DNA of 36,530 nucleotides from Pseudomonadota bacterium (GTDB lineage Bacteria > Pseudomonadota > Gammaproteobacteria > Burkholderiales > Burkholderiaceae_C): the NCBI GenBank assembly GCA_018241895.1, contig JAFECX010000142.1, forward strand, positions 1-36,530, in the 5' to 3' direction. Position numbers and translations under genes: made by a program. Every line of letters starts with the position of its first letter. Positions within the stretch are counted from its first letter, which is position 1. The notes under the pieces were generated by a model. The model was not told the origin of the DNA and ran no database searches. It worked only from the letters and a program-made list of their open reading frames with translations. Of the stretch, positions 1,847-13,892 are shown in pieces.

Positions 1847-3493
1847 ATGAACGGCCAAATGATGCAAATGCCGCTGCTGATCTCGTCCCTGATCGTGCAC
1901 GCCGAGCGGCACCACGGCGAGCAGGAGATCGTCTCGCGCCGCGTCGAGGGCGACCTCCACCGCACCACCTACCGCGAGCTGGCCGCGCGCTCGCGCCGCC
2001 TGGCCAATGCACTGGCCGCGCTCGGCGTCCAGGCGGGCGAGCGCGTGGCGACGCTGGCCTGGAACGGCTACCGCCACATGGAGCTGTACTTCGGCGTCAG
2101 CGGCTCGGGGGCCGTGCTGCACACGCTCAACCCGCGGCTGCACCCCGAGCAGCTCGTCTACATCGCCAACCACGCCGAAGACGCGGTGCTGTTCTTCGAC
2201 CTCACCTTCCTGCCGCTCGTCGCCGCGGTGGCGGGGCACGCGAAGAGCGTGCGCCACTGGGTGGCGATGACCGACCGCGCGCACCTGCCGGCCGATGCGG
2301 CCAAGATCCCCAACCTGCTCGTCTACGAGGAGATCGTCGAGGCCGCCAGCGAGCGCTACGTCTGGCCCAGCTTCGACGAGAACACCGCCTGCGGCCTGTG
2401 CTACACGTCGGGCACCACCGGCAACCCCAAGGGCGTGCTGTACAGCCACCGCAGCAACGTGCTGCACGCCTATGCGGCGGCGCTGCCCGACGCGCTCGAC
2501 TGCTCGGCGCGCGACGTCATCTTGCCGGTGGTGCCGATGTTCCACGTCAACGCCTGGGGTCTGCCGTACGTGGCGGCGATGACCGGCTCCAAGCTGGTGT
2601 TCCCGGGTCCGGCGCTCGACGGCAAGAGCCTGCACGATCTGTTCGAGTCCGAGAAGGTCACCGTCTCGGCCGGCGTGCCCACCGTCTGGCAGGGGCTGCT
2701 GGCCTACGTCGAGGCCAACAAGCTGGGCTTCACGACGATGCGGCGCACGGTGATCGGCGGCTCGGCCTGCCCGCCGGCGATGGCACGCGTCTTCGGCGAG
2801 AAGTACGACGTGCACGTGCTGCACGCCTGGGGCATGACCGAGACCAGCCCGCTGGGCACCACGTGCGCCTTCAAGAGCCAGCACGCGAGCCTCGACAAGG
2901 AGGGCCGCTATGCGCTGATGACCAAGCAGGGCCGGGCGATCTACGGCGTCGACATGAAGGTGGTCGACGCCGACGGCCACGAACTGCCCTTCGGCAGCGA
3001 GCAGTCGGGCGAGCTGCTCGTGCGCGGCCCGTGGGTCCTCCAGCGCTACTTCAAGGAAGAGGCCGCCAACCCGCTCGTCACCGACGCGGCCGGCCACCAG
3101 TGGTTCCCGACCGGCGACGTGGCGACGATCGACGCCGACGGCTACATGCACATCACCGACCGCAGCAAGGACGTCATCAAGTCCGGCGGTGAATGGATCG
3201 GCTCGATCGACCTCGAGAACATCGCCATGGCGCATCCGGCGGTGGCGATGGCCGCCTGCATCGCCGCCGCGCATCCCAAGTGGGACGAGCGGCCGCTGCT
3301 GGTGGTGGTCAAGAAGCCCGGCGCCGAGGTGACGCGCGAGGAGCTGCTGGCCTTCTACGAAGGCAAGGTCGCCAAGTTCTGGCTGCCCGACGACGTGGTG
3401 TTCGTCGACGCCATCCCGCTGGGCGCCACCGGCAAGATGCAGAAGAACAAGCTGCGCGAGCAGTTCAGGGACTACAAGCTGCCGACGGCCTGA
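1847..3493 (+). CDS. Acyl-CoA ligase, 3-methylthiopropionate/medium-chain fatty acid type
   Basis: ATP-dependent acyl-adenylate-forming enzyme that activates a carboxylic acid to its CoA thioester. The 548-residue protein has the phosphate-binding signature Y-T-S-G-T-T-G-N-P-K-G (about 186-196), the adenine-binding block G-M-T-E-T-S-P-L-G, the hinge/C-domain segment S-G-G-E-W-I-G-S-I-D-L-E-N and the C-terminal catalytic lysine context G-A-T-G-K-M-Q-K-N-K-L. The N-terminus (M-Q-M-P-L-L-I-S-S-L-I) and overall length fit the DmdB-like subgroup usually annotated as 3-(methylthio)propionyl-CoA or long-chain fatty-acid ligase. The start has a GAGGAGA sequence just upstream. Exact substrate cannot be read from sequence. 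It stands alone between tatC and the hpa operon, so a link with aromatic degradation is only possible. Confidence 0.9.
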   Translation: MNGQMMQMPLLISSLIVHAERHHGEQEIVSRRVEGDLHRTTYRELAARSRRLANALAALGVQAGERVATLAWNGYRHMELYFGVSGSGAVLHTLNPRLHPEQLVYIANHAEDAVLFFDLTFLPLVAAVAGHAKSVRHWVAMTDRAHLPADAAKIPNLLVYEEIVEAASERYVWPSFDENTACGLCYTSGTTGNPKGVLYSHRSNVLHAYAAALPDALDCSARDVILPVVPMFHVNAWGLPYVAAMTGSKLVFPGPALDGKSLHDLFESEKVTVSAGVPTVWQGLLAYVEANKLGFTTMRRTVIGGSACPPAMARVFGEKYDVHVLHAWGMTETSPLGTTCAFKSQHASLDKEGRYALMTKQGRAIYGVDMKVVDADGHELPFGSEQSGELLVRGPWVLQRYFKEEAANPLVTDAAGHQWFPTGDVATIDADGYMHITDRSKDVIKSGGEWIGSIDLENIAMAHPAVAMAACIAAAHPKWDERPLLVVVKKPGAEVTREELLAFYEGKVAKFWLPDDVVFVDAIPLGATGKMQKNKLREQFRDYKLPTA

Positions 3494-3568
3494 GCGGGTG
3501 CGCCGGCGGCGTGCCCGAGAGCGCCTCGGGCGCACCGACGACGCGCCGCCAGCCGCTGTCGGTCAAAT

Positions 3569-3581
3569 GTGGCTCGGCCAC
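3569..3581. promoter_or_regulatory. Small inverted repeat upstream of the hpa operon
   Basis: GTGGC-TCG-GCCAC is a perfect 5-bp dyad with a 3-base centre, about 57 bases upstream of the proposed -10 of hpaG1. Homoprotocatechuate operons are often repressed by a MarR-type HpaR, which binds dyads near the promoter, but no hpaR gene lies in the window and such short dyads are common in GC-rich DNA. Weak candidate operator only. Confidence 0.2.
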
Positions 3582-3637
3582 TGTGCCCGGCCTCCCACGG
3601 CGGGCGAGTTGGACGCGGCCCGGCCCCTGCGGCGCTC

Positions 3638-3643
3638 TATAGT
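3638..3643 (+). promoter_or_regulatory. -10 element of the hpa operon
   Basis: TATAGT matches the sigma-70 -10 consensus at five of six positions and ends 8 bases before the hpaG1 ATG at 3652. No good -35 is seen at 16-18 bases spacing, and there is no ribosome binding site before hpaG1, so transcription probably starts at or next to the ATG (leaderless or near-leaderless mRNA). Confidence 0.5.
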
Positions 3644-3651
3644 CGCCGCTC

Positions 3652-4359
3652 ATGAGCCTGTCCGCCGCATCGACGCCCGCCGGCAGCGACGCACTGCCCG
3701 CACTCGACGTCGCGCCGTGGCGGCTCACGGGCACCGTCGTCGGTGCCGCGATCGCCGACCCGGCACTGCTCGACGCGCTCGGCGAGCGCGTCGGGCAGGC
3801 CCCGTACCGCGGCGCGCCGCGTGCGCCGGTGCTCTACGTCAAGCCGCGCCACACGCTGGCCGCAGCGTGCTCGGCGTTCACGCTGCCTGCCGGTGCCGAC
3901 GCGATCGAGGCCGCGGCGACGCTCGCACTGGTGATCGGCCACACGGCGTGCCGCGTCGACGCGGCGGCAGCCGCCGGCTGCATCGCCGCCCGTGCGCTCG
4001 CAGTCGACCTCGGCCTGCCGCTCGTGAGCTGGTACCGCCCGGCCGCGCCGGCGCGCGCACTCGACGGGTCGCTGCGGCTGGGCCCGCCGCAGCCGGCTGC
4101 AGCCGATGTCGCCGCGGCGCCGGCCACGCTGCAGGTGTTCGTCGACGGCCGGCTCGCGCAACAGGTCGACACCGGCCGCTTCCTGCGCACGTCGGCGCAG
4201 CTCGTGGCGGACGTGTCCGAATTCATGACGCTCGCCGCAGGCGACGTGCTGCTCGTCGGCCTGCCGCATGCCGCGCCGCTCGTGCGCGGCGGGCAGCGCG
4301 TGCACATCGAAGGCAGCGGGCTCGGCAGCCTGCAGTTCACCGTCGAGGGCGCGCCGTGA
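3652..4359 (+). CDS. hpaG1: HpaG1, N-terminal-type subunit of the HHDD isomerase/OPET decarboxylase
   Basis: Fumarylacetoacetate-hydrolase-fold protein of 235 residues that aligns by eye with the N-terminal half of the single-chain HpaG of E. coli (shared blocks: K-P-R-H-T, A-L-V-I-G-H-T-A, S-W-Y-R-P-A, S-E-F-M-T-L-A-A-G-D-V-L-L-V-G). The acidic metal-binding E-x-E seen in the partner HpaG2 is replaced here by Ala-rich sequence (E-A-A-A-T-L-A-L-V), as in the degenerate N-terminal domain of E. coli HpaG, so this subunit is probably not the main catalytic one. It opens the hpa operon; its TGA overlaps the GTG start of hpaG2, which suggests coupled translation and a one-to-one complex. The ATG is preceded by a -10 element rather than a ribosome binding site. 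Confidence 0.85.
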   Translation: MSLSAASTPAGSDALPALDVAPWRLTGTVVGAAIADPALLDALGERVGQAPYRGAPRAPVLYVKPRHTLAAACSAFTLPAGADAIEAAATLALVIGHTACRVDAAAAAGCIAARALAVDLGLPLVSWYRPAAPARALDGSLRLGPPQPAAADVAAAPATLQVFVDGRLAQQVDTGRFLRTSAQLVADVSEFMTLAAGDVLLVGLPHAAPLVRGGQRVHIEGSGLGSLQFTVEGAP

Positions 4360-5165
4360 GCCGCCCGGGCGCCGGCACGGGTCGCACGGCGCGCACCGCA
4401 CGCGTCGCCCACGCCGGCGCCATCCACGAGGCGCACCCGCACGCAGCCGGGGTGCAGCTCGCCGACGGCCGCGTGCTCGCCGAGGACGCCGTCGTCTGGC
4501 TGCCGCCGGTGCAGCCGGGCACCGTCGTCGCGCTCGGCCTGAACTACGCCGATCATGTGCAGGAGCTGGCCAAGGAGCTGGCCCGGCCGGCGGCGCCGTC
4601 CGACAGCGAGCCGCTCGTCTTCTTCAAGACCGCCGCCAGCCTGCTCGGCCATCGCGGCCTGACCTGGCGGCCGCGCGCGGTGCGCTTCATGCACTACGAG
4701 TGCGAGCTGGCGGTGATCATCGGGCGCGGCGGCCGCGACATCGCCGAGCCGGACGCGATGGCGCACGTGGCCGGCTACACGGTGGCCAACGACTACGCGA
4801 TCCGCGACTATCTCGAGAACTGGCACCGTCCCAACCTGCGCGTCAAGAACCGCGACGGCGCCACCGTGCTCGGCCCCTGGTTCGTGCCCGCGGCCGAAGT
4901 GGGCGATCCGCACGCGCTCGCGCTGCGCACCTGGGTCAACGGCAAGCTCGTGCAGCAGGGCCACACGTCGAACATGGTGCACCGCGTGGCGCCGCTCGTC
5001 GCGTGGCTGAGCCGCTTCATGACGCTGGCGCCGGGCGACGTCATCCTGACCGGAACGCCCGAGGGCGTGGTCAACGTCGACGCCGGTGACGAAGTGGTGT
5101 GCGAGATCGAGGGCATCGGCCGCCTGGTCAACACCCTCGCCGACGATGCGGCCTTCGGTCGCTGA
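4356..5165 (+). CDS. hpaG2: HpaG2, catalytic subunit: 2-hydroxyhepta-2,4-diene-1,7-dioate isomerase / 5-oxopent-3-ene-1,2,5-tricarboxylate decarboxylase
   Basis: Catalyses decarboxylation and tautomerisation in homoprotocatechuate breakdown. The 269-residue protein matches the C-terminal half of E. coli HpaG: A-L-G-L-N-Y-A-D-H near residues 61-69, the metal-binding H-Y-E-C-E-L-A-V-I-I-G, A-G-Y-T-V-A-N-D-Y-A-I-R-D-Y-L-E-N with its metal-binding Asp, and the C-terminal T-G-T-P-E-G-V. All key acidic residues are present. The start is the GTG at 4356, which overlaps the hpaG1 stop in a GTGA; the open frame continues upstream but only as the opposite reading of hpaG1. The first 30 residues are Arg/Ala-rich and poorly conserved, so a slightly later start cannot be excluded. 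Confidence 0.9.
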   Translation: MSRPGAGTGRTARTARVAHAGAIHEAHPHAAGVQLADGRVLAEDAVVWLPPVQPGTVVALGLNYADHVQELAKELARPAAPSDSEPLVFFKTAASLLGHRGLTWRPRAVRFMHYECELAVIIGRGGRDIAEPDAMAHVAGYTVANDYAIRDYLENWHRPNLRVKNRDGATVLGPWFVPAAEVGDPHALALRTWVNGKLVQQGHTSNMVHRVAPLVAWLSRFMTLAPGDVILTGTPEGVVNVDAGDEVVCEIEGIGRLVNTLADDAAFGR

Positions 5166-5220
5166 GCCCGGCCGCCGCGCGTCGAGCGACGATCATGGAC
5201 ACCGAACGGAGACCCGCCGC

Positions 5221-6678
5221 ATGTACATCCGCCATCTGATCGGCGGCAAGGCGCACGACAGCGCCGAGCACTTCGAGACCGTCAATCCGGCGACGCAGGC
5301 CGTGCTGGCCGAAGTCGCGCGCGGCGGCGCGCCGGAGATCGATGCCGCCGTCGCCGCGGCCAAGGCGGCGTTCCCCGCCTGGTCGCGCCTGCCGGCACCC
5401 GAGCGCGCGAAGATCATGCACCGCCTGGGCGACCTGATCACGGCCAACGTGGCCCCGCTCGCCGCCACCGAGACCAGCGACACCGGCCAGCCGATCGCAC
5501 AGACCGGCGGCAGCCTGGTGCCGCGCGCGGCCGACAACTTCCACTACTTCGCCGAGATGTGCGTGCGCGTCGACGGCCACACCTATCCGACGCCGACGCA
5601 CCTGAACTACACGCTGTTCCATCCGGTGGGCGTGTGCGCGCTCGTCAGCCCGTGGAACGTGCCGTTCATGACCGCGACCTGGAAGGTCGCGCCCTGCCTG
5701 GCGTTCGGCAACACGGCGGTGCTGAAGATGAGCGAGCTGTCGCCGCTCAGCGCGGCGCGCCTGGGCGAACTCGCGCTCGAGGCCGGCGTGCCGCCGGGCG
5801 TGCTCAATGTCGTGCACGGCTACGGCAGGGAGGCCGGCGAGCCGCTGGTCTGCCACCGCGACGTGCGCGCCGTCAGCTTCACCGGCTCGACGCTGACCGG
5901 CCAGCGCATCGTGCAGGCCGCGGGCCTGAAGAAGTTCAGCATGGAGCTCGGCGGCAAGAGCCCGTTCGTCGTCTTCGAGGACGCCGACCTGGTGCGCGCG
6001 ATGGACGCCGCGGTCTTCATGATCTTCTCCAACAACGGCGAGCGCTGCACCGCCGGCAGCCGCATCTTCGTGCAGCGCTCGATCTACGCGGCGTTCGCCG
6101 ACAAGTTCGCCGCGCGCGCCTCGCGCATCACGGTCGGCGACCCGATGCTCGACACCACGATCGTCGGCCCGATGATCAGCCGCCAGCACCTGGCCAAGGT
6201 GCGCAACTACATCGCCCTCGGCGTCGAGGAAGGCGCCGAACTGCTCACCGGCGGCCTCGAGCCGCCGCGCATGCCGCTCGGCCTGGCCGGCGGCAACTTC
6301 GTCGTGCCCACGGTGTTCGGCAAGGTCGCCAACCGCATGCGCATCGCGCAGGACGAGATCTTCGGCCCCGTCGCCTGCCTGATCCCGTTCGACGACGAGG
6401 ACGACGCGATCCGCCTGGCCAACGACATCCCGTACGGACTGTCGAGCTACGTCTTCACCGAGAACCTCGGGCGCGCGCACCGCGTGGCCGCCGCGATCGA
6501 GGCCGGCATGTGCTTCGTCAACAGCCAGAACGTGCGCGACCTGCGCCAGCCCTTCGGCGGCACCAAGGCCAGCGGCATCGGGCGCGAAGGCGGCACCTGG
6601 AGCTACGAGGTCTTCCTGGAGCCGAAGAACGTGTGCGTGTCGCTCGGCTCGCACCCGATTCCGCACTGGGGGCGCTAG
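5221..6678 (+). CDS. hpaE: 5-carboxymethyl-2-hydroxymuconate semialdehyde dehydrogenase HpaE
   Basis: NAD-dependent aldehyde dehydrogenase that oxidises the ring-cleavage semialdehyde made by HpaD. The 485-residue protein has the family motifs: V-S-P-W-N-V-P-F-M cofactor segment, F-T-G-S-T-L-T-G, the general base Glu242 in M-E-L-G-G-K-S-P and the nucleophile Cys276 in N-N-G-E-R-C-T-A-G-S. The conserved C-terminus P-F-G-G-T-K-A-S-G-I-G-R-E-G-G is complete. An ACGGAGA ribosome binding site precedes the ATG at 5221 by 8 bases, and the N-terminus (I-G-G-K-x-x-D-S) fits the family, so the longer open frame beginning within hpaG2 is rejected. The assignment to HpaE rather than a generic dehydrogenase rests on context and on the fit with the family. 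Confidence 0.92.
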   Translation: MYIRHLIGGKAHDSAEHFETVNPATQAVLAEVARGGAPEIDAAVAAAKAAFPAWSRLPAPERAKIMHRLGDLITANVAPLAATETSDTGQPIAQTGGSLVPRAADNFHYFAEMCVRVDGHTYPTPTHLNYTLFHPVGVCALVSPWNVPFMTATWKVAPCLAFGNTAVLKMSELSPLSAARLGELALEAGVPPGVLNVVHGYGREAGEPLVCHRDVRAVSFTGSTLTGQRIVQAAGLKKFSMELGGKSPFVVFEDADLVRAMDAAVFMIFSNNGERCTAGSRIFVQRSIYAAFADKFAARASRITVGDPMLDTTIVGPMISRQHLAKVRNYIALGVEEGAELLTGGLEPPRMPLGLAGGNFVVPTVFGKVANRMRIAQDEIFGPVACLIPFDDEDDAIRLANDIPYGLSSYVFTENLGRAHRVAAAIEAGMCFVNSQNVRDLRQPFGGTKASGIGREGGTWSYEVFLEPKNVCVSLGSHPIPHWGR

Positions 6679-6700
6679 CCACCGCGAAGGAGCACTCACG

Positions 6701-7639
6701 ATGGGCAAGCTCGCACTCGCCGCCAAGGTCAGCCACGTGCCGTCGATCTACCTCAGCGAGACCGGCGGCGGCACGCGCCAGGGCTCGCGCCAGGACGCGA
6801 TCGACGGCTACGCCGAGATCGGCCGGCGCTGCCGCGACCTGGGCGTCGACACGATCGTCGTCTTCGACACGCACTGGCTCGTCAACGCCAGCTACCACAT
6901 CAACTGCGCGCCGCAGTTCAAGGGCCTGTACACGAGCCCCGAGCTGCCGCACTTCATCACCAACATGGCGTACGAGTTCCCGGGCAACCCGGTGCTCGGC
7001 CGCCTGCTGGCGGCCAAGGGCAACGAAATGGGCGTCGAGACGCTGGCGCACGACGCGACCTCGCTCGCGCCCGAGTACGGCACGCTGGTGCCGATGCGCT
7101 ACATGAACGGCGACCGGCATTTCAAGGTCGTCTCGGTGTCGGCGATGTGCACGGTGCACCACCTGGACGACAGCGCACGCCTGGGCTGGGCGATGCGCCG
7201 CGCCGTCGAGGAGGACTACGACGGCGCGGTGGCGTTCCTGGCCAGCGGCTCGCTGTCGCACCGCTTCGCGCAGAACGGCCTCGCGCCGCAGTTCGCGTTC
7301 AGGATCTGGAGCCCGTTCCTCGAGGAACTCGACCACCACGTGATCGCGATGTGGAAGGCCGGCCGCTGGCGCGAGTTCTGCGGCATGCTGCCCGAGTACG
7401 CGCCCAAGGGCCACGGCGAGGGCTTCATGCACGACACCGCGATGCTGCTGGGCGCGCTCGGCTGGAGCGCGTACGACGGCAAGGCCGAGATCGTCACGCC
7501 CTACTTCGGCGCCTCGGGCACGGGCCAGATGCACGCCGTGCTGCCGGTGACGCCGCAGACGGGCGACGCCATCCCGGCCGCGGTGGCCTCGCACGCCGAG
7601 GGCTTCATGGCCGCGACCTCCGCGCCCCGGCGCGCGTAG
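6701..7639 (+). CDS. hpaD: 3,4-dihydroxyphenylacetate 2,3-dioxygenase HpaD
   Basis: Extradiol ring-cleavage dioxygenase of the LigB superfamily; opens homoprotocatechuate to 5-carboxymethyl-2-hydroxymuconate semialdehyde. At 312 residues it is slightly longer than the E. coli enzyme and matches it almost continuously: the N-terminus M-G-K-L-A-L-A-A-K-V-S-H-V-P-S, V-F-D-T-H-W-L-V-N, N-C-A-P-Q-F-K-G-L-Y-T-S, E-L-P-H-F-I, G-T-L-V-P-M-R-Y-M-N, A-S-G-S-L-S-H-R-F and G-E-G-F-M-H-D-T. These include the His residues and acidic residues expected around the Fe(II) site. A strong GAAGGAG site lies 10 bases before the ATG. The C-terminal tail of about 25 residues is extra and Ala-rich. Confidence 0.95.
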   Translation: MGKLALAAKVSHVPSIYLSETGGGTRQGSRQDAIDGYAEIGRRCRDLGVDTIVVFDTHWLVNASYHINCAPQFKGLYTSPELPHFITNMAYEFPGNPVLGRLLAAKGNEMGVETLAHDATSLAPEYGTLVPMRYMNGDRHFKVVSVSAMCTVHHLDDSARLGWAMRRAVEEDYDGAVAFLASGSLSHRFAQNGLAPQFAFRIWSPFLEELDHHVIAMWKAGRWREFCGMLPEYAPKGHGEGFMHDTAMLLGALGWSAYDGKAEIVTPYFGASGTGQMHAVLPVTPQTGDAIPAAVASHAEGFMAATSAPRRA

Positions 7640-7675
7640 CGGCGCGCGCGCATCCACGACGCGGGAGGACGCGGC

Positions 7676-8137
7676 GTGCCGCACCTGGTGATCCTGTACA
7701 CGCCGCAGCTCGACGCCGAGACCGACGTCGGCGCGCTGTGCCGCAAGCTGGCCGACACGCTGCTGGCCGCGCGCGACGAGGCCGGCAAGCCGGTGTTTCC
7801 ACCCGGTGGCACGCGCGTGCTCGCGTACGCGGCGACGCACCACGCAGTGAGCGACGGCGGCGCGGCCGACCGCGCCTGCGGCGGCAGCGGCGACTACGCC
7901 TTCGTCTACGCCAACCTGCGCATGGGCGCCGGCCGCAGCGCTGCCGTGCAGCGCGAAGTGGGCGCGGCGCTGCTCGCCACGGCGAAGGCGCATCTGGCGC
8001 CGCTGTACGAGCGGCGGCGCATCGGCCTGACGCTGCAGATCGACGAAGGGCGCGAGGTCTTCGACGCCAAGCTCGGCACCATCCACCCGCTGTTCGCCGC
8101 GCCCGCGCCCGCCAGGGGCGAGCCGCCCGGGCCATGA
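7676..8137 (+). CDS. hpaF: 5-carboxymethyl-2-hydroxymuconate delta-isomerase HpaF
   Basis: Tautomerase-fold enzyme that isomerises 5-carboxymethyl-2-hydroxymuconate for the next step by HpaG. The start is a GTG with a GGGAGGA site 8 bases upstream; the mature enzyme begins with the catalytic Pro after the initiator Met (M-P-H-L-V-I-L), as in E. coli HpaF. The block [15 protein letters not shown] near residues 77-91 corresponds to Y-A-F-V-H-M-T-L-K-I-G-A-G-R-S of the E. coli protein, and the C-terminus keeps the conserved H-P-L-F. At 153 residues it is longer than the usual 125-130, with an extra Gly/Pro-rich tail. Confidence 0.9.
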
Positions 8138-8198
8138 GGCGCCGGCAAGCGCGCCGGCGCACCGGCACCACCGCACGCTCCGTGCCGGGGATCGAGCC

Positions 8199-9008
8199 TT
8201 GACCACGCTGCACCACGACCAGCACGTCGCCCTGGCCCGCGAACTGCGCGAGGCGCGCCGCACGCGCGTGCAGCTGCGCCACTTCTCGCAGCGCTTTGTC
8301 GGCATGACGATCGCAGACGGCTATGCGATCCAGCGCGAATGGGTCGAGCTCGAGCTGGCCGAGGGCCGCAGCATCCGCGGCCGCAAGATCGGCCTGACCT
8401 CGCGCGCGATGCAGCTCGCCAGCCAGATCACCGAGCCCGACTACGCGCCGCTGATGGACGACATGTTCCACGCCAACGGCAGCGACATCGCCATCGAGCG
8501 CTTCATCGCGCCGCGCATCGAGGTCGAGTTCGCCTTCGTCCTCGGCCGCCCGTTGCGCGGGCCCGGCGCGACGCTGTTCGACGTGCTCGCTGCCACCGAC
8601 TACGTGTGCCCGGCGATCGAGATCATCGACGCGCGCATCGAGCAGTACGACCGCGACACGCGGGCGCCGCGCAAGGTCACCGACACCATCAGCGACTTCG
8701 CCGCCAACGCCGGCATCGTGCTCGGCGGCCGCCCGGTCAAGCCCGACGCCGTCGACCTGCGCTGGGCCGGCGCGATGCTGTTCAAGAACGGCGTCATCGA
8801 GGAGACCGGCCTGGGCGCCGCCGTGCTCGGGCATCCGGCGATGGGCGTGGCATGGCTCGCCGACCGGCTGGCGCCCTACGGCGAGCAGATCGCCGCCGGC
8901 GACATCGTGCTCGCGGGCTCGTTCACGCGGCCGGTCGGCGGCGCCGCAGGCGACACCTTCCACGCCGACTACGGGCCGCTCGGGGCGGTGAGCTTTCGCT
9001 TCGTGTGA
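8199..9008 (+). CDS. hpaH: 2-oxohept-4-ene-1,7-dioate hydratase HpaH
   Basis: Hydratase that adds water to 2-oxohept-4-ene-1,7-dioate, giving the substrate of the HpaI aldolase. The 269-residue protein tracks E. coli HpaH closely: [39 protein letters not shown] with the metal-binding acidic pair, and the C-terminal G-S-F-T-R-P-V. The start is an unusual TTG at 8199 with no clear ribosome binding site; it is chosen because the N-terminus from there matches the family length and no ATG or GTG fits. Translation may depend on coupling with hpaF, 61 bases upstream. The aldolase gene that normally follows is absent here; a candidate lies at 17070. Confidence 0.92.
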
Positions 9009-9094
9009 AGGCGTCGCGGCCGACGACGCCATGACGCGCACGCGCGGCTCCTCGGCAACCACGCCCTGAGGCAACGTCCGGCACGCGACAACCC

Positions 9095-9763
9095 ATGCGC
9101 ATCCTGCTGGTCGAAGACGACACGATGATCGGCGAGAGCCTGCGCGAGGCGCTGCGCGCGCAGGGCCTGGCCGCCGACTGGGTGCGCGACGGGCGCGCGG
9201 CCGATGCGGCACTCGCGAGCGAGCGCTTCGACGCCGTGCTGCTCGACCTCGGGCTGCCGCAGCGCAGCGGGCTCGACGTGCTGCGCGCGTTGCGTGCACG
9301 CGGCAACGCGACGCCGGTGATCGTCGTCACCGCGCGCGATGCGCTGGCCGACAAGGTCGCGGGGCTGGACGCCGGCGCCGACGACTACCTGCTCAAGCCC
9401 TTCGAGCTCGACGAGCTGCTCGCGCGGCTGCGCGCCGTGGTGCGTCGCCAGGCCGGGCGCGCGACGAGCGCGCTCGTCGTGGCCGACCTGCGGCTCGATG
9501 CGGCAACGCGCGAAGTCAGCCGCGGCGGCCGTCCGGTGCTGCTGTCGGCGCGCGAGTTCGCCCTGCTCGAGGCGCTGATGGAGCGCCCCGGCGCCATCCT
9601 TTCGCGCGCGCAGCTCGAGGACCGTCTCTATGGCTGGGGCGAGGAGCTCGAGAGCAACGCCATCAGCGTCTACGTGCACCAGCTGCGCAAGAAGCTGGGC
9701 GACGACGTGCTGCACACGCTGCGCGGCGTCGGCTACTACGTCGGGCCGGCCAAGGAACGCTGA
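9095..9763 (+). CDS. OmpR/QseB-family response regulator
   Basis: Two-domain transcription factor of 222 residues. The receiver (about 1-115) has the acidic pocket E-D-D, the phospho-acceptor Asp51 in L-L-D-L-G-L-P, the T-A-R-D switch and the K-P-F lysine. The C-terminal winged helix (about 128-218) has the typical L-S-A-R-E-F-A-L-L-E and the S-N-A-I-S-V-Y-V-H-Q-L-R-K-K-L-G recognition helix. It resembles QseB/TctD-type regulators most. It is followed after 66 bases by its sensor kinase and then by a Do protease gene whose promoter carries an OmpR-type repeat array (11210-11248), so the protease is the probable target. It starts 86 bases after hpaH, so read-through from hpa is possible. Confidence 0.93.
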   Translation: MRILLVEDDTMIGESLREALRAQGLAADWVRDGRAADAALASERFDAVLLDLGLPQRSGLDVLRALRARGNATPVIVVTARDALADKVAGLDAGADDYLLKPFELDELLARLRAVVRRQAGRATSALVVADLRLDAATREVSRGGRPVLLSAREFALLEALMERPGAILSRAQLEDRLYGWGEELESNAISVYVHQLRKKLGDDVLHTLRGVGYYVGPAKER

Positions 9764-9829
9764 GAACCCCCGTGCAGACAGGACTCGCATGACCGGCGCG
9801 CGCGATTCCGGCCGCCGCAGGCGCCGCCG

Positions 9830-11158
9830 ATGAAGGCGATGCGCTCGCTGCGCCTGCGGCTGTTCTCGTTCCTGCTCGCGCTCGCGGCGGTGGTGGCGGC
9901 GGTGGTCGGCAGTGCCACCTACGCCAGCGTGCGCACCGAAGCCGACGAGTTGTTCGACTACCAGCTGCGCCAGATGGCGCTGTCGCTGCGCGACCAGGGG
10001 CGCATCGCCGACGACGAACGCAGCGCGCTGGCCAATGCCGAGTTCGACTACGTCGTGCAGGTCTGGTCGATCGACGGCGTGCAGCTGTACTCGAGTCTGC
10101 CCGGCCGCCAGACGGCGCTGCTGCCGGCGCGCGCCGTGCTCGGCTTCAGCAACGTGGAAGTCGACGGACACACCTGGCGCGTGTTCGGCGCGGCGACGCC
10201 GTTGCGCGTCGTGCAGGTCGGGCAGCCGCTGGCCGTGCGACGCCGGCTCGCCGCCGAGGCCGCGGGGCGCAGCGTGCTGCCCGTGCTGGTCGCCGCGCCC
10301 GCGGTGGCGCTGGCGATGTGGTGGCTGGTCGGCCTGTCGCTGGCGCCGCTGGCACGCGTGGCCGAGGCCGCACGGCGGCGCGGCGCCGCGGCGCTCGATC
10401 CGCTGCCCACCGCGGCGCTGCCCAGCGAGATGCAGCCGCTGGTCGACGCCTTCAACGCCCTGCTCGGCCGCCTGAGCGCGGCGTTCGATGCCGAGCGCGC
10501 CTTCATCGCCGACGCCGCGCACGAGCTGCGCACGCCGCTCACCGCACTCAGGCTGCAGATCGGCCTCGTGCGCGATGCGCCCGACGCCCCGGCGCGCGAG
10601 GCCGCGCTGGCGCGGCTGCGCGCCGGCGTCGAGCGCGCCGTGCACCTCGTCGAGCAGCTGCTGGCGCTGGCACGGGCCGAACCCGGCGCCGGTGCCGCGC
10701 AGGCGACGATCGATCTGGCGCTCGTGGCACGCCAGGCGCTGGCCGACGCCGAGCCGCTGGCTGCCGCGCAGGGCGCCCAGATCCGGCTCGATGCCCCCGA
10801 GGCGCTGCCGATGCAAGGCGACGCGGCGGCGCTGCGCTCCCTGCTGCGCAACCTCGTGGACAACGCGCTCAAGCACGGCCGCCGCGACGGCGAAGCCGGC
10901 GCACGGGTGGCACTCACGCTGCGCTCGGCGGCCGAGGGCGCGGTCCTCGAGGTCGACGATGCCGGCACCGGCATCGCCGCAGCCGAGCGCGAGCACGCGT
11001 TCGAGCGCTTCCGCCGCGGCGACACCAGCCGCAGCGAAGGCAGCGGGCTCGGGCTGGCCATCGTGCAGGCCGTGGCGCGCCAGCATGGCGGCAGCGTCGA
11101 GCTCGGCAGCAGCGCCGAAGGCGGGCTGCGCGTCACGGTGCGCCTGCCGCGCCGCTAG
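9830..11158 (+). CDS. QseC-like sensor histidine kinase
   Basis: Inner-membrane sensor kinase of 442 residues, partner of the regulator at 9095. It has two membrane helices (about 10-32 and 148-172) flanking a periplasmic domain of roughly 115 residues with many acidic residues, a HAMP-like linker, the H-box F-I-A-D-A-A-H-E-L-R-T-P-L-T with phospho-acceptor His231, the N-box N-L-V-D-N-A-L-K-H, and G-boxes D-D-A-G-T-G-I and G-S-G-L-G-L-A-I-V. The acidic periplasmic part could sense cations or envelope state, as in PmrB/QseC, but the signal cannot be read from sequence. No strong ribosome binding site precedes the ATG at 9830; the next in-frame Met is only two codons on. Confidence 0.92.
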   Translation: MKAMRSLRLRLFSFLLALAAVVAAVVGSATYASVRTEADELFDYQLRQMALSLRDQGRIADDERSALANAEFDYVVQVWSIDGVQLYSSLPGRQTALLPARAVLGFSNVEVDGHTWRVFGAATPLRVVQVGQPLAVRRRLAAEAAGRSVLPVLVAAPAVALAMWWLVGLSLAPLARVAEAARRRGAAALDPLPTAALPSEMQPLVDAFNALLGRLSAAFDAERAFIADAAHELRTPLTALRLQIGLVRDAPDAPAREAALARLRAGVERAVHLVEQLLALARAEPGAGAAQATIDLALVARQALADAEPLAAAQGAQIRLDAPEALPMQGDAAALRSLLRNLVDNALKHGRRDGEAGARVALTLRSAAEGAVLEVDDAGTGIAAAEREHAFERFRRGDTSRSEGSGLGLAIVQAVARQHGGSVELGSSAEGGLRVTVRLPRR

Positions 11159-11209
11159 CGCCGTGCGCGTGCGCCGCACCGCGGCGGGCACCGCGACGGC
11201 CGCCGCCGC

Positions 11210-11248
11210 CTTCACCTACACCTCATCTTCGCCTCACGCTGCGTTCAT
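11210..11248 (+). promoter_or_regulatory. Four direct repeats at 11-bp period: OmpR-family regulator box
   Basis: CTTCAC (11210), CCTCAT (11221), CCTCAC (11232) and GTTCAT (11243) begin exactly 11 bases apart, the helical-turn spacing of tandem half-sites for OmpR/PhoB-family dimers. The last repeat ends 10 bases before a -10-like TAGAGT, the geometry of a Pho-box that replaces the -35. The regulator encoded directly upstream (9095-9763) is the natural candidate to bind here and activate degP. Confidence 0.65.
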
Positions 11249-11258
11249 CGGCGCTGCC

Positions 11259-11264
11259 TAGAGT
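11259..11264 (+). promoter_or_regulatory. -10 element of the degP promoter
   Basis: TAGAGT matches four of six -10 consensus positions and lies 10 bases downstream of the repeat array, with no recognisable -35, as expected for an activator-dependent promoter. It would give a leader of about 40 bases containing the AAGGAG site of degP. Confidence 0.4.
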
Positions 11265-11309
11265 GCTTCGCAACGCCGGTCGACCGGCGGCACTCACCAA
11301 GGAGCTCTC

Positions 11310-12809
11310 ATGACCAAGCGCACCCTCATCGCCGCTGCCGCGGCGCTCGCCATCGGTGGTCTGGGCGTCAGCGCCGACGCCTGGACGCTGCCGTCCTGGC
11401 TGCATCGGCCCGCCGACGTGGCACAGAACGACACCACCGTCGCCGCCGCGAGCGGCACCGCCGCCGCGGCGCCGGCAGCCGTGAACGTCGCGCCGTTGCC
11501 GCCGGGCAGCGTGCCGAATTACGCCGCCATCGTGAAGGCCGAAGGGCCGGCCGTGGTCGGCGTCATGGTGAGCGGCCTGCGCACGCCGCAGGGCATGTCG
11601 GGCGTGTCGCCCGATCAGGATCCGTTCTACCAGTTCTTCCGCGGCCTGCCGGGGTTCCGTGGCTTCCAGATGATGCCGCAGGGCCCGCAGCCGTTCCGCG
11701 GCCAGGGTTCGGGGTTCATCGTCAGCTCCGACGGGCTCGTGCTCACCAACGCGCACGTGGTGCGTGATGCCAAACAGGTGACGGTGAAGCTGTCGGATCG
11801 GCGCGAGTTCAAGGCGAAGGTCCTGGGCAGCGACACCGCCACCGACATCGCGGTGCTGAAGATCGACGCCAAGGGGCTGCCCACGGTGACGCTGGGCGAC
11901 AGCCGCGCCGTGCACGTGGGCGACTACGTGCTTGCGATCGGCGCGCCGTACGGCTTCGAGCAGACCGCCACGCAGGGCATCGTGAGCGCCAAGGGGCGCT
12001 CGCTGCCGGGCGAAAGCGTGGTGCCGTTCATCCAGACCGACGCCGCGGTCAACCCGGGCAACTCCGGCGGTCCGCTGTTCGACGCCGCGGGCCGCGTGGT
12101 CGGCATCAACGCGCAGATCTTCTCGCAGAGCGGCGGCTTCCAGGGTGTCGCGTTCGCGATCCCGATCGACGTCGCGCTCAACGTCAAGAGCCAGATCGTC
12201 GAGCACGGCCAGGTCGAGCACGCGCGGCTCGGCGTCATGCTGCAGGACCTGTCGGCGCCGCTGGCCGATTCGTTCGGCCTCAAGGCACCGGACGGCGCGC
12301 TGGTGGCCAGCGTGAGCCCCGACAGCGCGGCCGCGAAGGCCGGGCTGAAGGCCGGTGACGTGATCACCCAGTTGGACGGCCAGCAGGTGCAGACCGCGGG
12401 CGACATCTCGACGCGCGTGGGCATGGCGCGGCCGGGCGAGCACATCAAGCTCACCGTGTGGCGCGACAGGACGCAGCACGACATGCAGGTCACGCTGGGC
12501 AAGGCGCAGCCGGACAAGGAAGCGAAGGTCGCGGCCGCCGAAGGCGGTGCGCTCGGCCTGACGGTGCGCCCGCTCAACCACGACGAGCAGGAAAGCGCCG
12601 GCGTCGACCACGGACTGCTCGTCGAGCAGGCGCAGGGCCCGGCGCAACTGGCCGGCGTGCAGCCCGGCGACGTGCTGCTCGCCGTCAACGGCAAGCCGGC
12701 CAAGAGCGTCGATCAGGTGCGCGAGGCGCTGCGCAACCACCCGGCGCACGTCGCGCTGCTGGTGGCGCGCGACGGCCAGCAGATCTTCATCCCGGTCGAT
12801 CTCGGGTGA
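11310..12809 (+). CDS. degP: Do-family periplasmic serine protease (DegP/MucD type)
   Basis: Envelope quality-control protease/chaperone of 499 residues. A Sec signal peptide (about 1-24, ending A-D-A) is followed by an Ala-rich linker, a trypsin-like domain (about 70-275) with catalytic His149 (T-N-A-H-V-V), Asp179 (T-D-I-A-V-L) and Ser252 (N-P-G-N-S-G-G-P-L), and two PDZ domains (about 290-385 and 405-497). The Phe/Pro/Met-rich LA-loop-like stretch near 100-132 fits DegP/MucD. A clear AAGGAG sits before the ATG. It follows a two-component pair and a probable regulator-binding array, so it is likely induced by envelope stress sensed through that pair. The hairpin at 12833-12861 ends its transcript. 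Confidence 0.95.
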   Translation: MTKRTLIAAAAALAIGGLGVSADAWTLPSWLHRPADVAQNDTTVAAASGTAAAAPAAVNVAPLPPGSVPNYAAIVKAEGPAVVGVMVSGLRTPQGMSGVSPDQDPFYQFFRGLPGFRGFQMMPQGPQPFRGQGSGFIVSSDGLVLTNAHVVRDAKQVTVKLSDRREFKAKVLGSDTATDIAVLKIDAKGLPTVTLGDSRAVHVGDYVLAIGAPYGFEQTATQGIVSAKGRSLPGESVVPFIQTDAAVNPGNSGGPLFDAAGRVVGINAQIFSQSGGFQGVAFAIPIDVALNVKSQIVEHGQVEHARLGVMLQDLSAPLADSFGLKAPDGALVASVSPDSAAAKAGLKAGDVITQLDGQQVQTAGDISTRVGMARPGEHIKLTVWRDRTQHDMQVTLGKAQPDKEAKVAAAEGGALGLTVRPLNHDEQESAGVDHGLLVEQAQGPAQLAGVQPGDVLLAVNGKPAKSVDQVREALRNHPAHVALLVARDGQQIFIPVDLG

Positions 12810-12832
12810 GCGCCGTCGTCGACCTGGGCGCG

Positions 12833-12861
12833 CGCGGCCGGCTGCACCCCAGCCGGCCGCG
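12833..12861. terminator. Bidirectional hairpin terminator between convergent genes
   Basis: A perfect 12-bp GC-rich stem (CGCGGCCGGCTG with its complement) closes on the 5-base loop CACCC. It lies between the stop of degP and the stop of the convergent thioredoxin-fold gene, which ends 3 bases away at 12864. On the plus strand a short TGCTATTT stretch follows; on the minus strand no T run follows, so termination in that direction is less sure. Confidence 0.7.
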
Positions 12862-12863
12862 TG

Positions 12864-13892
12864 CTATTTCCAAAGATCCACGGTCCGACCGCGCTGGCGC
12901 AGGCGCTCGGCGCGCGCCTGGATGAAGCGCTGGAAGCTCGGCTGCTCGCGCCAGGCGCCGCTGGCGACGTACTCGAGCGCTTCGGCGAGGTGAAACGGCC
13001 GCAGGTACGACTCGACGCGAAACACCTCGCCGCGGCCGGCCTCGAAGAACACCAGCGCCGGCGCGTACGGCAGTGCCAGCTGGCGTGCCCACGCGCGCGC
13101 GTCGGTGCGCGTGCCGTCGGGCGCCGTGAGCGGCGTCGGCGCATCGGCGTCGATCTGCACGACGACGAAGCGCCCGAGCAGTTTCCTCACCTCGGGGCGC
13201 CGAAAGCCTTCGCGGTGCATCTCGTCGCAGCTCGCGCACGACTTGCGCTCGACCAGCACGAGCAGCGGCCTGGCGCCGGCGCCCTGGAGCAACGCCGCCA
13301 GGTCGTGCGGCGGCGCGCGCAGGAACGGCTCGGGGCTCAAGGTCGCCCTGGCCGCGTCCGCCGGGAGCCCGTTCAGATGCTCGGCCAGCGTCAGACGCCT
13401 TTCCATGCGGCCGGCCACGTAGTCGAGCGCCGCCTCCATGCGCGGCGCCGGGAAGTAGCCGTCGAGCCGCGCCACCACCTGCGCCTTCTCGTCGAACATC
13501 AGCACGGTGGGCGTGAACTGCACCTGCAGCACGCGGCCGAGTTCCTTCTCGCTCATCGTGCGCCCGTCGATCCAGGTCACCTCGCGGTCACCCCACAGGT
13601 TCAGCGCGATGGCGACGAAGTGCTGTGCGGCCTTGGCCGCAATGCGCGTCTCGACGAAGGTGGTCTGCATCAGCGCGCGGCAATAGGGACAGCCGTCCTG
13701 CCCGAAGTACAGGAGCAGGCGCTTGTTGTCGCGCGCCGCATCGGCGATGTCCTCGCGCAGGTCGAGCAGCGTCTCGACGAACCACGGCGGGATGCGGATG
13801 GCGTGCGGCGCGGGCACCTGCGCCGTGGCCAGCCCCGCGCACGAGGCAAGCAGCGCGCCGACGAGCGTGCGGCGGTCGGGGTCTGGCGGCAT
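12864..13892 (-). CDS. Exported protein with two thioredoxin-like folds
   Basis: Predicted exported thiol protein of 342 residues. The start at 13892 is chosen because a perfect AGGAGG lies 9 bases upstream; an ATG 12 codons earlier lacks this. The N-terminus D-R-R-T-L-V-G-A-L-L-A-S-C-A-G-L-A-T-A is a signal peptide with a twin Arg, so either Sec or Tat export is possible. The first thioredoxin-like domain (about 35-165) has D-G-C-P-Y-C-R (Cys68, Cys71) and a cis-Pro in F-T-P-T, similar to SoxW/thioredoxin-fold proteins. The second (about 195-320) has K-S-C-A-S-C-D (Cys219, Cys222) and a possible cis-Pro in L-P-Y-A-P-A. The C-terminal 25 residues are Arg-rich. The redox partner is unknown; it does not sit in a sox or dsb operon. 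Confidence 0.8.
   Translation of the reverse strand: MPPDPDRRTLVGALLASCAGLATAQVPAPHAIRIPPWFVETLLDLREDIADAARDNKRLLLYFGQDGCPYCRALMQTTFVETRIAAKAAQHFVAIALNLWGDREVTWIDGRTMSEKELGRVLQVQFTPTVLMFDEKAQVVARLDGYFPAPRMEAALDYVAGRMERRLTLAEHLNGLPADAARATLSPEPFLRAPPHDLAALLQGAGARPLLVLVERKSCASCDEMHREGFRRPEVRKLLGRFVVVQIDADAPTPLTAPDGTRTDARAWARQLALPYAPALVFFEAGRGEVFRVESYLRPFHLAEALEYVASGAWREQPSFQRFIQARAERLRQRGRTVDLWK

Follow-up and report, generated by a model that had tools for sequence, protein, structure and literature searches.

In Escherichia coli, the envelope protease gene degP is controlled by CpxR, a two-component regulator of the OmpR family. We know of no established assignment of degP control in Burkholderiales. 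Among OmpR/PhoB-family operators, the box of the PmrA (BasR)/QseB type is exemplified by Klebsiella pneumoniae pbgP, where it reads CTTAAT-N5-CCTAAG (PMC3973317, PMC4660055). In the crystal structure of PmrA bound to DNA, Asn196 is among the base-specific residues of the recognition helix (PMC4660055). The equivalent position is Arg201 in PhoB, where it contacts a guanine, and in free PmrA a salt bridge joins Glu191 to Arg171 (PMC3973317). BqsR (CarR) from Pseudomonas aeruginosa binds TTAAG-N6-TTAAG operators. Its target promoter PA14_04180 contains four natural pentamers, of which 3 and 4 are critical and 1 and 2 additive (PMC4682146). Finally, the double pho box bound by PhoB at E. coli pstS consists of four half-sites at 11-bp steps, located 10 bp from the -10 element TATTTT.

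Results

Genes and array upstream of degP

The window, i.e. the whole stretch of 36,530 nucleotides that was analysed, carries a two-component system immediately upstream of degP. The features of this region are the following.

9095-9763, forward strand: response regulator, 222 aa, OmpR/PhoB family, PmrA/QseB-like (Pfam, NCBIfam, alignment)
9830-11158, forward strand: sensor histidine kinase, 442 aa, QseC-like, with periplasmic sensor 2CSK_N, HAMP, HisKA and HATPase_c domains (profile searches)
11211-11215, forward strand: half-site 1, TTCAC, in the putative added upstream dimer site (sequence, genome scan, relatives)
11222-11226, forward strand: half-site 2, CTCAT, in the putative added upstream dimer site (sequence, genome scan, relatives)
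11233-11237, forward strand: half-site 3, CTCAC, in the putative promoter-proximal dimer site, at the presumed position of the ancestral box and in place of a -35
11244-11248, forward strand: half-site 4, TTCAT, in the putative promoter-proximal dimer site (sequence, relatives)
11259-11264, forward strand: -10 element TAGAGT, 10 bp 3′ of half-site 4 (sequence, relatives)
11299-11304, forward strand: ribosome-binding site AAGGAG (sequence)
11310-12809, forward strand: degP, Do-family periplasmic serine protease/chaperone, 499 aa, the putative downstream target gene (TIGR02037, Pfam)

The regulator contains the Response_reg (PF00072) and Trans_reg_C (PF00486) domains in Pfam, which bears out its assignment to the OmpR/PhoB family in the initial annotation. 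Its best NCBIfam models are PmrA (PRK10643, 224.3 bits for a curated cut-off of 330) and QseB (PRK10336, 221.1 bits for a cut-off of 345). Since both cut-offs are missed, the protein is a relative of PmrA and QseB and not an equivalog. It aligns without gaps to BasR/PmrA (8jo2/4s04), and PmrA residue numbering is therefore used throughout. The recognition helix reads S187-N-A-I-S191-V-Y-V-H-Q196-L-R, with Ser191 and Gln196 instead of the Glu191 and Asn196 of PmrA; regulators of this kind are called Ser/Gln below. The degP product scores 472.8 bits with TIGR02037 (cut-off 416.2) and carries a Trypsin_2 domain and two PDZ domains. On the other side of the regulator gene, a cluster at 1847-9008 encoding an AMP-binding enzyme, an aldehyde dehydrogenase and FAA-hydrolase-type proteins resembles an aromatic meta-cleavage pathway; it stops 86 bp 5′ of the regulator gene.

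Direct reading of the sequence places the hexamers CTTCAC, CCTCAT, CCTCAC and GTTCAT at 11210, 11221, 11232 and 11243. The four repeats at an exact 11-bp period that had been proposed are thus present letter for letter, as is the -10-like TAGAGT, which follows the last hexamer at a distance of 10 bases. Each repeat has the 5-mer YTCAY as its informative core. When spacings from 5 to 22 were scanned, chains of three or four YTCAY were found in the window at spacing 11 only, and the array before degP is the only chain of at least three. The 400 bp that precede the regulator gene do not contain even a pair. The absence of an array belonging to the regulator and kinase genes themselves, as claimed initially, therefore stands.

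Could the periodicity have arisen by chance in GC-rich intergenic DNA? Unrelated CTCAC/TTCAT tandem repeats do exist in some genomes of the genus. However, when the 151-bp intergenic region was shuffled 20,000 times at constant dinucleotide composition, three or four in-phase YTCAY never occurred (two occurred in 116 shuffles), and about 30 species keep the array together with its spacing to the -10. A chance origin is thus extremely improbable.

The best match to a -35 for the degP promoter, at spacers of 15-19 bp, is 1/6, and a consensus scan of positions 8950-12900 revealed no sigma-70-like promoter. This layout equals that of E. coli pstS and agrees with the geometry of two adjacent OmpR/PhoB-type dimer sites replacing the -35, as first proposed. 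The start of degP transcription is predicted at about 11270-11272. A perfect 16-bp palindrome, CGCCGGTCGACCGGCG, lies at 11274-11289 in the predicted degP 5′ leader, just past this start.

Comparison with described operators

The array shares with the PmrA/QseB-type box its direct half-sites, their 11-bp steps and their location in the -35 region, and the regulator family is the closest one. It differs by having four half-sites and not two, by C or T at position 5 and often by C at position 3. All four half-sites are YTCAY, and none is TTAAG or otherwise fits the (C/T)TTAA(G/T) half-site (YTAAG/T) of PmrA, QseB and BqsR. The BqsR promoter PA14_04180 is similar in its 5-bp half-sites, 6-bp spacers and number of pentamers, but its half-site is TTAAG, its last pentamer overlaps the -35, and it belongs to a ferrous-iron system whose target is not degP. 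The pstS operator has the same four half-sites at 11 bp, with about 10 bp to the -10 and no -35, but a CTGTCAT/CTTACAT half-site, in the phosphate regulon of another subfamily. CpxR offers a functional parallel, namely control of an envelope protease gene by an OmpR-family two-component system; it differs in subfamily and box, and regulates many genes whereas only two full arrays were found here. No prior description of the degP array was found in the literature searched, which included few subscription papers. One candidate, the BiofilmReg operon paper (PMC5192318), was discarded because it concerns an unrelated operon.

Conservation of the array and of its regulator

The degP promoters of relatives contain exactly four YT[A/C]AY units at 11-bp steps, followed by 10 bp and a -10 element. 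The array is common to about 30 related species, with the 11-bp phase and the 10-bp gap fixed. Named species bearing it include members of Pelomonas, Piscinibacter, Ideonella and Aquincola, and Rubrivivax benzoatilyticus, whose strain JA2 (L101), a laboratory phototroph, shows this arrangement too. The initial annotation had suggested looking for such conservation, and had given YTCAY as consensus. This consensus holds for the four sites of the present genome but not for the relatives, and was rejected as a strict rule in favour of YTMAY. Moreover, A2 and T6 of the -10 are present in 30/30 aligned relatives. Since the arrays of these relatives were located from the half-sites alone, without use of the -10, this supports the assignment of the promoter independently.

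We scanned 81 genomes of the genus (the GTDB grouping). The array at degP was found in 28 and a matching regulator orthologue in 28, both being present in 27 genomes and neither in 52, in a sample that is phylogenetically non-independent. One exception (G072) has a Ser/Gln regulator without an array, and an N run (assembly gap) occupies the expected degP promoter. The other (G056) has the array but no regulator was found in its assembly, which is 89% complete.

These counts bear on the identity of the protein that reads the array. Other PmrA/QseB-like paralogues exist, for example on contig C126 of this genome, and the array could be the operator of one of them, with the two-component genes adjoining by chance. 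However, the array tracks the neighbouring orthologue with two explained exceptions, and this pairing holds where the regulator lies on another contig (L041/L193, L039/L224). In addition, the C126 paralogue has a Glu191/Ala196 helix, and YTAAG-N6-YTAAG has no site in this genome. Recognition by a paralogue is thus very improbable, and the neighbouring regulator very probably binds the four half-sites.

Before the regulator gene itself, no array was found in Ser/Gln members of the genus, except for two-unit near-matches at two loci (L182, L183). In an outlying Ser/Gln lineage (family f13, 6 genomes: L304, L306-L309, L043), a two-unit CTAAC-N6-TTAAC (YTAAC) precedes the regulator gene, suggesting autoregulation with the new letters. 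One genome (G290) contains a Ser/Gln regulator with neither a nearby degP nor an array.

A second candidate target

The exact four-unit YTCAY array has 2 matches in the whole 3.98-Mb genome, and a reversed control pattern has 0. The scan at 11-bp spacing proposed in the initial annotation thus yields one site besides degP, at G000:C184:3194-3231 (L002/L046). This second array lies in front of the gene of a 147-aa protein that seems to carry a signal peptide, and 10 bp separate its last half-site from a -10-like TAGCTT, as at degP. Array and gene together span G000:C184:3194-3785 (L046), and the 147-aa protein matched no Pfam family. Since a second candidate target exists, degP is not the sole target. 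In one relative (G064, L078), the orthologous gene (58% identity) is preceded by a like array. Arrays are absent before more distant homologues, including a match in G082 that begins at residue 22. As the array accompanies this protein only in G000 and G064, the second target was rejected as a regulon-wide rule. When two mismatches were allowed and a -10 required, no further array was detected in this genome. A wide search for four YTMAY units in other genomes (G011, G066, G068, G075, G096 and others) mostly returned simple tandem repeats that lacked a -10 and lay elsewhere than at degP; these were set aside.

A probable ancestral two-unit box

In other Burkholderiales, in Rhodocyclales-type genomes and in one Reyranella, the same neighbourhood, ordered regulator-kinase-degP or degP-regulator-kinase, carries a single YTAAG-N6-YTAAG box. 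This is the canonical PmrA/BqsR-type operator (PMC3973317, PMC4682146). It mostly lies at the same 10-bp distance from the -10 as the proximal pair of the array. Half-sites 3 and 4 would thus occupy the place of the ancestral box, with half-sites 1 and 2 added upstream. From this sequence comparison, the array appears to be a doubled and re-lettered PmrA/QseB box that changed with its reader.

Four-unit arrays also occur before degP with Glu191 regulators, in Telluria aromaticivorans (L145) and at one other locus (L338), and their letters are mostly TTAAG/CTAAG. Doubling therefore does not require the helix change, and the two are separable. In one case (L173), a Glu191 regulator has degP nearby but no box was detected. 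The initial interpretation stood in all its sequence-level predictions, and missed both the origin from a two-half-site TTAAG box and the link to the recognition helix. The comparison thus supports it in essentials and adds an account of where the array came from.

Recognition helix and half-site letters

Concordance between helix and box was examined in 89 distinct promoters with a linked regulator. In the proximal half-sites, base 5 is G in 115/122 cases with Glu191 regulators, C or T in 54/54 with Ser191 regulators, and A in 2/2 with the single Asp191 regulator. The number of units follows the same division. Four units were counted by script in 26/27 Ser191 promoters, and the 27th (L310, genome G261) also has four, compared to two units in 58/61 Glu191 promoters. 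All regulators linked to four-unit YTMAY arrays share the helix S-N-(A/T)-(I/V)-S191-V-Y-x-H-Q196. Regulators linked to TTAAG boxes carry Glu191, and their residue 196 is G, A, S, N, T, H or M. The Asp191 case is Hydrocarboniphaga effusa (L138), where TTAAA-N6-TTAAA lies 10 bp before CATCGT at degP. One genome, G084, holds both types: a Ser/Gln regulator with the four-unit degP array, and a Glu/Gly regulator that has a TTAAG-N6-CTAAG box beside it (L090, L210).

We infer that residues 191 and 196 may cause the new half-site specificity. The Ser/Gln regulators form one clade, even with the recognition helix masked. This indicates a single evolutionary switch that has persisted, rather than a series of parallel ones. 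Helix change, half-site change and doubling each represent one historical event, so that the causal link between them is not independently replicated. Asp191 with TTAAA is the only combination separate from this event. Residues 191 and 196 could accordingly be hitchhikers: the regulator would still bind the array, but specificity would reside in other parts of the domain, with the agreement between helix and box letters due to common descent only. The monophyly of the Ser/Gln regulators, and the many further residues at which the clades differ, speak for such a reading. It is nevertheless rather unlikely, since both residues are on the recognition helix, 196 is a known base reader, both are invariant in 27 linked Ser/Gln pairs whose identity falls to about 65%, and in the separate Asp191 case this position of the box holds yet another base, the third.

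A change of alphabet in one step is a tentative reading, to which we give somewhat less than an even chance. The replacement of Glu191 by Ser, with Gln196, would have removed the need for G at position 5, the doubling to four half-sites would have compensated, and the outcome would be a near-private regulon of degP and one secreted protein.

Discussion

Most probably, the phosphorylated regulator occupies the array in the form of two dimers in tandem and thereby activates degP, the array being a doubled, re-lettered box. The QseC-like kinase would sense envelope stress and the regulator would become phosphorylated; the nature of the signal is suggested by the target and by the periplasmic sensor domain. 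The phosphorylated regulator would then bind head-to-tail as two dimers, one on half-sites 3 and 4 in the place of the -35 and the other just upstream on half-sites 1 and 2. The former would contact sigma, in a class II activation, and the latter would add affinity or output. The promoters of pstS and PA14_04180 and the PhoP boxes of Salmonella are precedents in keeping with this mechanism. Once bound, the regulator would bring RNA polymerase with sigma-70 to the -10 element TAGAGT and so switch degP on. The ancestral promoter would have borne a single dimer site, TTAAG-N6-TTAAG, equally far from the -10, as is still the case in most Burkholderiales with this neighbourhood. In the lineage of this genome, the box would have been extended to four YTMAY half-sites together with the change of Glu191 to Ser and of residue 196 to Gln.

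OmpR-family regulators bound across a promoter can repress, and the array might act on degP in this way. Indeed, PmrA represses pmrD (PMC3335776). However, the degP promoter lacks a -35, and a box directly 10 bp 5′ of the -10 occupies the place from which PhoP acts as a class II activator. In Salmonella, the architecture I boxes of PhoP are about 12 nt 5′ of the -10 (PMC3335776), and those of PmrA and PhoB are similarly placed. Repression thus seems quite unlikely, and activation is the preferred reading.

Control of degP in Burkholderiales would thereby be assigned to the neighbouring two-component system, and both the transcription start and the consensus can be predicted. The family moreover provides a natural experiment on the joint change of regulator and operator, with two box types and two helix types, each in many species, and G084 with both. 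If the one-step change of alphabet is true, residue 191 would act as a simple switch of specificity within the PmrA/QseB subfamily, with Glu specifying G, Ser specifying C or T, and Asp specifying A.
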